A stretch of 64,000 bases of DNA, taken from assembly GCF_020085105.1 (NCBI RefSeq), contig NC_058065.1, positions 4,447,718-4,511,717 on the forward strand, given 5' to 3'. This document shows, piece after piece, positions 54,801-56,535 of this stretch. The position numbers and the translations under genes are program-made. The stretch is from Siniperca chuatsi. Lineage: Eukaryota > Chordata > Actinopteri > Centrarchiformes > Sinipercidae. The notes beneath the pieces were generated by a model. It saw nothing but the letters and a program-made list of their open reading frames with translations. It did not search any database and had not been told where the DNA came from. Positions within the stretch are counted from its first letter, which is position 1; every line of letters begins with the position of its first letter.

Positions 54801-56535
54801 CTACAATAATACCACCTGTGGTGTCAATGAGGATTGAACCCAGATTTTCTAGACCTCCAAGCAGGCCTCTATCATCCTGAGCTACCTGAGAAGATCTGCG
54901 GATGTTTTTTAAATATTCGTCTACATAAAAATGTTATCAATATAACCTTTAAACCAACCCTTCTTGGTGGGAGTGTTTCCAATCTTTCTTTCCAGTGTTG
55001 GACCGTACCTATATGAAAAACATAAAATATCTCTGACCTTATCTTTAAATCACGATTGAATTGTCTCATAGGTATAAACATCTATTTTGTCTCATTCGAA
55101 CCATCACAATTGTTTTCTTCTTGCTCTCTCAGGCCAAAGAGCTGCAGACTCTCCACAACCTGCGCAAACTCTTCGTTCAGGACCTCACCACGCGGGTTAA
55201 GAAGGTACACGCGACCTTCCTGTGGTTGTGAACACATATGACTGGTCATTTAATGTCGTTCAGTATAATCTATCTGAAAATGGCAGTTTAACGTTTAACC
55301 TGTGCTCTGTTTTTGTTGTCAGAGTGCAGAGCTGGACTGTGAGGAGGGACTTGGCAACGTGGCCCAGAAACAAAAGATCTCCTTCCTGGAGAACAACCTG
55401 GAACAGCTCACCAAGGTCCACAAGCAGGTAAAGAAATGAAACTATGACTACCATTTACTATATATGTATATATGACTACTATTCTATACAGGAAATGAGA
55501 ACTTACCCTCAGCCAGTGGTGGAAGAAGCACTCAGATCCTATACTTAAGTAAAAGTAGCAGTACAATAATGTAAAAATACTCTATTACAAGTAAAAGTCC
55601 TGCATTCAAAATCCTACTTAAATAAAAGTAGAGAAGTATTATCAGCAAAATCTATTATTATTACATGATTAGATTGGTAATACTAATGGATCAATGCATA
55701 AGTAGCAGTTTTAACTATTTAATATACAGGGTCACAAAGTAAATCCGAGGGGTCGTGAGATGATTAATGGGAGAAGAAAGACGTAAAAAAACAAAGTTCT
55801 GTTGTACCAATTTGTATTTTGAGTTTTTTGACTTTTCTCTAGTTTTTGCTCTTTTGTGAAATATTGGATTAATTTTATCTCTTAGGACTTCAAACAAAAC
55901 TACTTAAATAATTTCAGATGTCATCTAAAACATGACATGGGGCACTAACTATCATATCTTTTTTATGTAAAATCTTAATTTGAAAAGTAACTAATAACTA
56001 TAGCTGCTAAGGACATGTAGTGGAGTAAATAATATATAATAATACAATATTTCCCTCTGAAATGTAGTGGTGTAGAAGTATAAAATGGAAATACTCAAGT
56101 ACTTGAGTAAATGTACTTAGTGACTTTACCCCACTGCTCTCAGCTGGTTCGAGACAACGCAGACCTTCGCTGCGAGCTGCCCAAGCTGGAGAAGCGTCTG
56201 CGGGCCACAGCCGAGCGAGTCAAAGCCCTGGAGAACGCCCTGAAGGAGGCCAAGGAGAACGCCATGAGGGACCGCAAGCGCTACCAGCAGGAGGTAGACC
56301 GCATCAAAGAGGCCGTCCGGGCCAAGAACATGTCCAGGAGGGGGTACTCTGCACAGATCGGTGAGCTGACAGTCAGATACTGAAGACTTGGACAGAGGGG
56401 AAAATATAATATAAATGATTGAATAATCGCTTTCTTCTTTGCGCCTCAGCAAAGCCCATCCGGCCAGGCCATCATCCACTGTCGTCCCCCATCAGCAGCT
56501 CCATCAGAGCCGGGGGCATCTACGCCCACAACTAA
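39882..56535 (+). CDS. kif5c: Kinesin-1 heavy chain KIF5C, complete
   Basis: Plus-end-directed microtubule motor for axonal transport. Coding exons: 39882-40007, 42723-42810, 43623-43696, 44320-44424, 45189-45237, 45336-45391, 46047-46134, 47397-47521, 47636-47740, 47875-48023, 49752-49900, 51471-51652, 51841-51909, 51996-52202, 52391-52543, 52626-52823, 53089-53206, 53388-53461, 53550-53659, 53801-53902, 53987-54047, 55133-55204, 55323-55427, 56144-56360, 56450-56535. Together they give 955 aa (human about 957). The motor is about residues 1-328, with P-loop GQTSSGKT at 85-92, switch [10 protein letters not shown] at 198-206 and switch II DLAGSEK at 231-237. A heptad-rich stalk and the tail autoinhibitory QIAKP at about 926-930 follow. 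[20 protein letters not shown] and DNTPVIDN favour KIF5C over KIF5A or KIF5B, as does the neighbour mbd5. The tail ends [10 protein letters not shown]. Intron 1 has a GC donor. Confidence 0.96.
40313..40346. repeat. (TA)n microsatellite in kif5c intron 1
   Basis: A pure AT dinucleotide tract of about 34 bases. Confidence 0.95.
41182..41225. repeat. Perfect 20-bp hairpin with 4-base loop
   Basis: GTGAGTCATACAGATACAAG (41182-41201), loop GCTG, then the exact reverse complement (41206-41225). It lies in kif5c intron 1 and is the tightest perfect palindrome I noticed in the window. It could be a cruciform or foldback remnant. A microRNA precursor is less likely, because the stem is short and has no mismatches. 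Confidence 0.95.
42231..42279. repeat. Compound (CA)n/(ATATT)n microsatellite
   Basis: A CA tract (about 42231-42247) runs into ATAT and then at least four ATATT units, in kif5c intron 1. Confidence 0.9.
43289..43345. repeat. Irregular GACTTG tandem repeat in kif5c intron 2
   Basis: Repeated GACTTG and GACTTGA words (GAGACTTGGACTTGAATC, GGACTTGAGACTTGACTTGG). The repeat is degenerate and has no coding or RNA features. Confidence 0.6.
46250..47335. mobile_element. Interrupted copy of the TTACTTAAGTAAAAG repeat, kif5c intron 7
   Basis: The left part (about 46250-46438) has CCTTTACTTAAGTAAAAG, CAGCAAAATGTACCTCAAGTA and AAAATGGCCCCTTTTACTG. The right part (about 46951-47335) has GTAAGCAGCATTGTACTGTT, GGTCGTGAGATGATTAATGGGAG and a terminal TAAAAGTACAGTACTTAGTTAC. 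The same blocks occur at 55514-56136. The 5' end appears truncated. The gap is filled by the separate element at 46440-46950. Confidence 0.65.
46440..46950. mobile_element. MITE nested inside the intron 7 repeat
   Basis: The left end AGCTACATTTACATGGAGC and the reverse complement of the right end, AGCTGCAGTTACATGCACA, form an imperfect terminal inverted repeat. The element is about 511 bp with no reading frame of note. The older repeat resumes on both sides, so this insertion is younger than its host. Confidence 0.6.
50393..50645. repeat. Pyrimidine-rich and (CA)n low-complexity region, kif5c intron 11
   Basis: A poly(T) run (about 50393-50409) is followed by CT-rich simple sequence and a short CA tract near 50632-50645. 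Nothing coding is seen. Confidence 0.6.
52369..52386 (+). repeat. (GT)9 tract at kif5c exon 15 acceptor
   Basis: Nine GT units end four bases before exon 15 (52391). They occupy the place of the usual polypyrimidine tract, so the acceptor reads (GT)9-ACAG. Confidence 0.95.
52554..52570 (+). repeat. (AC)8 tract just after kif5c exon 15
   Basis: A 17-base AC tract starting 11 bases beyond the exon 15 boundary (52543). It is complementary to the (GT)9 tract on the other side of the exon. Confidence 0.95.
54276..54905 (-). repeat. Cluster of degenerate tRNA-like cassettes in kif5c intron 21
   Basis: On the minus strand there are four B-box-like motifs, given here as plus-strand positions: 54301-54311 (GGTTCGAATCC), 54461-54470, 54602-54611 (both GGTTCGATCC) and 54831-54840 (GGTTCAATCC). 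The last three are preceded, about 45 bases upstream on the minus strand, by A-box-like TAGCTC(A/G)G words (54507-54514, 54647-54655, 54876-54884). They share the core GAGGCCTGCTTGG. Units 2 and 3 also share flanking GGCGCTTTT blocks about 140 bp apart. The T-arm stems pair poorly, so these are not functional tRNA genes. A tRNA-derived SINE or tandem tRNA-related repeat fits best. Confidence 0.7.
55514..56136. mobile_element. hAT-like MITE abutting kif5c exon 24 acceptor
   Basis: About 623 bp with ends CAGTGGTGGAAGAAG and (inverted) CAGTGGGGTAAAGTC. It is flanked by an apparent 8-bp target-site duplication, CCCTCAGC (55506-55513) and CTCTCAGC (56137-56144). The interior includes TACTTAAGTAAAAGTAG, CAGCAAAATCTATTATTA, GGTCGTGAGATGATTAATGGGAG and AGTACTTGAGTAAATGTACTTAG. 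It has no transposase frame. The CAG...CTG ends with 8-bp duplications are typical of the hAT superfamily. The right duplication contains the working splice acceptor. Confidence 0.75.

Follow-up and report, generated by a model that had tools for sequence, protein, structure and literature searches.

The locus

The window analysed here is a stretch of 64,000 nucleotides of the Siniperca chuatsi genome (contig NC_058065.1); its own positions are used throughout, and all the features of the intron described in this section lie on its forward strand. A kif5 coding exon (55323..55427), recognised by its collinearity with the kif5 paralogues and by its reading frame, ends in ...KVHKQ and is followed by GTAAAG. 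The intron that begins there (55428-56143) measures 716 nt, the length given in the original prediction. Its first 78 nt (55428..55505) lie outside the ends of a family of miniature inverted-repeat transposable elements (MITEs) and are taken as the remainder of the host intron. Next comes the left target-site copy CCCTCAGC (55506..55513), whose AG at 55511-55512 is the presumed former acceptor and would close an intron of 85 nt (55428-55512). The 623-bp hAT-like MITE, CAGTGGTGGAAG...TTTACCCCACTG, occupies 55514..56136, with its ends set by other copies in the same genome, and is followed by the right target-site copy CTCTCAGC (56137..56144), which contains the acceptor AG (56142-56143) and, as its last base, the first base of the next kif5 coding exon (56144..56358). 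This exon starts with CTGGTTCGAGAC and aligns from its first codon to residues 849-919 of kinesin-1 heavy chain (PDB 8rhb). The two 8-bp flanks, CCCTCAGC and CTCTCAGC, differ at one base and thus agree at 7/8.

The element starts at 55514 with CAGTGGTGGAAGAAG and its last bases, up to 56136, read CCCCACTG. The terminal portion AGTGACTTTACCCCACTG (56119..56136) contains a pyrimidine tract and a branch-point candidate, A56123, which is a guess from the sequence. The start motif CAGTGGTGGAANAAG has a single exact match in the window, at 55514, and 14 matches when up to three mismatches are allowed, against 7.85 expected. The repeat finder reported no short terminal inverted repeat for the kif5c copy, in which this repeat has diverged; only the consensus of the family shows it clearly. 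Within the remaining host sequence of the intron there is a 20-nt imperfect direct repeat (80%; window 55436-55455 and 55464-55483), and the intron may at an earlier stage have been even shorter.

Identity of the gene and age of the intron

The name kif5c, which comes from the original prediction, is presumably correct on the basis of the tail sequence and of the neighboring gene. We take that neighbor to be mbd5; it gives a partial match to the PWWP domain of 24.4 bits, under the Pfam cut-off of 25.6. The exon downstream of the element had been called exon 24 of kif5c: that it is a kif5 exon has held, while its number is less certain, as it is approximately the 23rd coding block when blocks collinear with the paralogues are counted.

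The exon that starts at 56144 is present at six kif5 loci in this genome, and an AG immediately precedes the same codon at all six. Donor and acceptor were both read at four of these loci, where the intron, always after the HKQ codons, is 716, 250, 571 and 132 nt long; at the two remaining loci the distance to the preceding exon block was taken instead, approximately 4.8 and 3.3 kb. An intron is therefore found before the same codon at the five other loci, and by this comparison of sequences the kif5c intron is an old one, of phase 0. As its position is shared by six kif5 loci, the insertion would have enlarged an existing intron.

The MITE family and its target-site duplications

The genome searched comprises 719 Mb in 65 contigs. 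With the element as query, it yielded 4992 first-look candidates, 40 of which were scored, and the family sample consists of 39 other copies fetched besides the kif5c element. A consensus of the left 145 bp was made from the first 20 copies, which themselves diverge from it by 4 to 14.5%; the kif5c copy departs from it at 12/145 positions (8%). At its right end the kif5c copy reads TTAGTGACTTTACCCCACTG, identical to the right-end consensus TTAGTTACTTTCCACCACTG at 17/20 positions. The terminal inverted repeats of the family consensus, CAGTGGTGGAAG and CTTTCCACCACTG, start with CAG and end with CTG, and the element is repeated and non-coding, with no stop-to-stop frame of at least 70 aa wholly inside its 623 bp. 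The hAT label was given from these ends and from the length of the duplication, traits typical of hAT elements; CAGTGGTGGAA ends are common in fish. Searches of viral contigs with the two left-end patterns of the family gave 0 and 0 matches.

A recognizable right end, defined as at least 15/20 bases of the right-end consensus, is kept by 19 of the 39 copies. Between the left and right 8-bp flanks of these copies, the number of identical positions is 8, 8, 8, 7, 7, 7, 7, 6, 6, 6, 6, 5, 5, 5, 5, 4, 3, 2 and 1. The match reaches at least 7/8 in seven of these 19 copies and in none of 342 cross-pairings, a control in which the left flank of one copy is compared with the right flank of another (cross maximum, 6). 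In the other 12 it stays under 7/8, as would be expected if these copies are old. Both the limits of the kif5c element and its 8-bp duplication thus have independent support, being of the kind that this family makes. A MITE-like element at 55514-56136, bordered by an 8-bp duplication with one mismatch that spans the intron–exon boundary, had been predicted from the sequence of the locus; its coordinates were read directly, and its ends agree with those of the family.

A diverged relative of the same element is located in another kif5c intron, at about 46248-47316. Its left end has decayed, a large internal stretch does not match the copy at 55514-56136, and it ends on the right ~80 nt upstream of the acceptor at 47397. 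Family members can also contain a second hAT-like terminal motif, seen at window 47019-47090 (CAGTGGCTCCCAACCTGGGGG) and in one further genomic stretch (L014), which suggests a composite element.

Acceptor strength and reading frame

Acceptor strength was scored with a position model. From 21 exon blocks, with 106 acceptors in all, five blocks with a miscalled or ambiguous border (24 acceptors) were set aside; the first two kif5 exons lie outside the 21. This left 16 kif5 exons at six loci with 82 acceptors, or 81 reference acceptors once the site in question is excluded; among these 81 are the acceptors of the same exon in the five paralogues. On this scale the right acceptor scores 5.84, above 15/81 reference acceptors, a value equalled or exceeded by 7.5% of 1338 background AGs; this site has 13/16 pyrimidines at positions -20 to -5, target-site bases included. 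The left copy scores -2.36, above 0/81 and level with the median background AG, and has 7/16 pyrimidines, the lowest value among the 81 reference acceptors being 8. The pre-insertion acceptor, reconstructed by joining the flanks, scores -0.92, below 81/81. When the end of the kif5c element is replaced by the family-consensus end, the right site reaches 7.41 (above 26/81), and with the opposite end of the element 8.27 (above 39/81). The duplicated AG was thus probably usable at once, since the element end brings its own pyrimidine tract, whatever its orientation.

The best-scoring AG of the intron lies within the element, at 55841-55843 (TTTTTTGACTTTTCTCTAG; score 9.77; exon start 55843). It is not needed by the reading frame and is a candidate for leaky splicing. 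Since this better AG exists and 7.5% of the background AGs are as strong as the right acceptor, the score alone does not pick 56144, and we infer that exon context must matter to the choice of acceptor, as AG strength does not decide it.

The reading frame does distinguish between the sites. Splicing to the right copy would keep the kinesin frame, and all five alternative readings tested run into a stop: splicing to the left copy adds 11 residues before it, and stops are also met from two AGs inside the element, from one AG just upstream and upon retention of the intron. This agrees with the original prediction, which had assigned the right copy as the acceptor of the kif5-type exon. It had further proposed that the gene was saved because the duplication carried the AG with it. 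The AG was indeed carried, but it does not account for the acceptor alone, given that the element end provides most of the pyrimidine tract. That this tract comes from the transposon is correct for the most part, the adjoining target-site bases contributing the rest; the transposon origin of the branch point, also proposed, depends on A56123, a position guessed from the motif GTGAC in this copy, which is GTTAC in the consensus.

Proposed history of the intron and alternative explanations

The favored model, to which we assign a probability of roughly 0.88 from these sequence comparisons, proposes that a MITE inserted across the kif5c acceptor and that its 8-bp duplication rebuilt it. A non-autonomous hAT-like MITE would have entered the acceptor of the ancient phase-0 intron, where the transposase would have made a staggered cut of 8 bp, comprising the last seven bases of the intron and the first base of the exon. 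Repair would then have duplicated these 8 bp, so that the downstream copy, still joined to the exon, carried AG|C. The family-consensus end CTTTCCACCACTG, pyrimidine-rich and AG-free, would have formed a normal acceptor with the duplicated CTCTCAG, taking the place of the displaced pyrimidine tract. The intron would have been lengthened from ~85 to 716 nt, leaving the mRNA unchanged, if splicing proceeds as the frame predicts. The upstream copy would have become an intronic decoy, whose use leads to an early stop; it should have competed initially and is now weak.

The left site may have decayed, been selected against or always been weak. In the same sense, the pre-insertion score of -0.92 would reflect either decay or an empty ancestral site that was less ordinary than the 85-nt intron model supposes, in which case that model needs qualification. 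A variant compatible with insertion across the acceptor holds that a poor ancestral acceptor was improved by the element, so that the insertion was mildly favored. The rise from -0.92 for the pre-insertion join to 5.84 at present, or 7.41 with the consensus end, is in line with it; yet decay of the left site after its loss of function explains the scores equally, and the 12/145 differences from the consensus imply that time for such decay was available. We regard this variant as possible, with the odds clearly against it.

Two other explanations depart from insertion across the acceptor altogether. The element could have inserted within the intron, immediately 5' to the acceptor, with the likeness of the two 8-mers due to chance: CTCTCAG is a common acceptor string, acceptors often resembling YYYYCAG, the two copies differ by one mismatch, and the context of the left one is not acceptor-like today. 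Nevertheless, both 8-mers abut the family ends, so that a fortuitous match would have to fall exactly there, and the family does make 8-bp duplications (7/19 copies against 0/342 cross-pairings), which makes this explanation very improbable. Even less credible is that the whole intron was made by the element. Introners can draw splice sites from target duplications, according to a survey of these elements (PMC9860276), which lends this idea a precedent, but it is contradicted by the kif5 paralogues, since the same codon follows an intron at the five other loci, and by the 78 nt of intron outside the element, and it was rejected.

Search for other cases and expected frequency

Insertion across the acceptor, as proposed for kif5c, raises the issue of how often the family could produce such an event. 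A pattern that combines the exact right end with a YAG in the next 8 bases has 368 matches in the genome (control pattern, 2), and the equivalent pattern for the other end has 450 (control, 0). A few sites match twice, the places listed are the first of each pattern (contigs C1-C5), and copies whose ends have diverged, such as the one in kif5c, are missed by these exact-end patterns. Forty stretches were read: the right-end list supplied its first 20, and the remaining 20 were chosen by eye for duplications resembling an acceptor, 8 of them from that list and 12 from the other-end list. L082 and L102, both among the 40, belong to a single element. Among 42 candidates in the 40 sampled stretches, no second convincing coding frame was found behind an element-end AG. 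The codon score is 0.99 for the kif5c control, followed by 0.34 for L096 (16 aa) and 0.05 for L081 (59 aa open); it is a crude score, trained on 384 codons that all come from kif5c, with the control exon left out because two of its frames are open. L081 (G000:C1:12959998-12961713) shows an element end, then TAG and the 59-aa open frame, with its borderline codon score.

A narrower pattern, which contains a GT, gave three matches (control, 1). One of them, L070 (G000:C12:5284300-5286200), is a 916-bp copy that has the left end of the family and a duplication matching at 7/8, GTCAAAGC/CTCAAAGC, which also contains AG; no left end was present within the stretch fetched for the other two. A pattern for the kif5 exon had 0 matches in viral_contigs and genome_contigs, two collections without fish.

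By our own estimate, the chance of a YAG within this distance is ~0.18, and dividing 368 and 450 by it puts the number of ends in the thousands. A fish genome has roughly 200,000 acceptors. On a hand estimate, with seven positions for each acceptor, ~0.2% of random insertions would straddle one, which would amount to several to ~10 such insertions for this MITE family before selection. Given this number, one surviving case is to be expected and is not astonishing.

Significance and comparison with known systems

The kif5c intron can be viewed as a clean natural experiment on the survival of a gene whose splice site is straddled by a transposon insertion. Two contributions can be told apart in it: the AG and the initial base of the exon come from the duplication, the pyrimidine tract and perhaps the branch point from the element. 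The old acceptor is left stranded within the intron, where its presumed decay is traceable by species comparison. It has also been considered, as a speculative idea that we hold to be rather doubtful, that the ends of the family behave as portable acceptor modules: their last 13-15 bases are AG-free and pyrimidine-rich in either orientation, so that any 8-bp duplication containing an AG would yield an instant acceptor. If so, the family could move, lengthen and in principle create vertebrate introns by an Introner-like route. Should such readiness to serve as acceptors be general among the element ends, the numerous MITEs of fish could alter the ends of introns at a higher rate than is assumed.

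Among known systems, Introners are likewise elements with a target duplication able to supply a splice site while the mRNA remains unchanged (PMC9860276). This trait is found in kif5c, where AG|C lies in the right copy and the frame would be kept. In contrast, Introners create new introns, while the kif5c element displaced and rebuilt only the acceptor of an existing one, which the five other kif5 loci also have. The Introner survey reports no evidence of such a route in vertebrates (PMC9860276). Among the titles and opening lines of abstracts listed, our literature search found no vertebrate target duplication that re-creates an acceptor, which is weak evidence of novelty, most subscription journals being outside its coverage. 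With the hAT-superfamily MITEs of teleosts, the element shares its short non-coding length, CAG...CTG inverted ends, 8-bp duplications and high copy number, so that the kif5c copy seems an ordinary family member, unusual only by its landing site. The maize Ds element, also a hAT element, is spliced out with sites at or near its target duplication, but it lands in exons and makes new introns, whereas in kif5c an old intron was lengthened. The kif5c case is best called an acceptor replacement by a MITE together with its duplication, a variant of these systems and one example of a rare but expected event.
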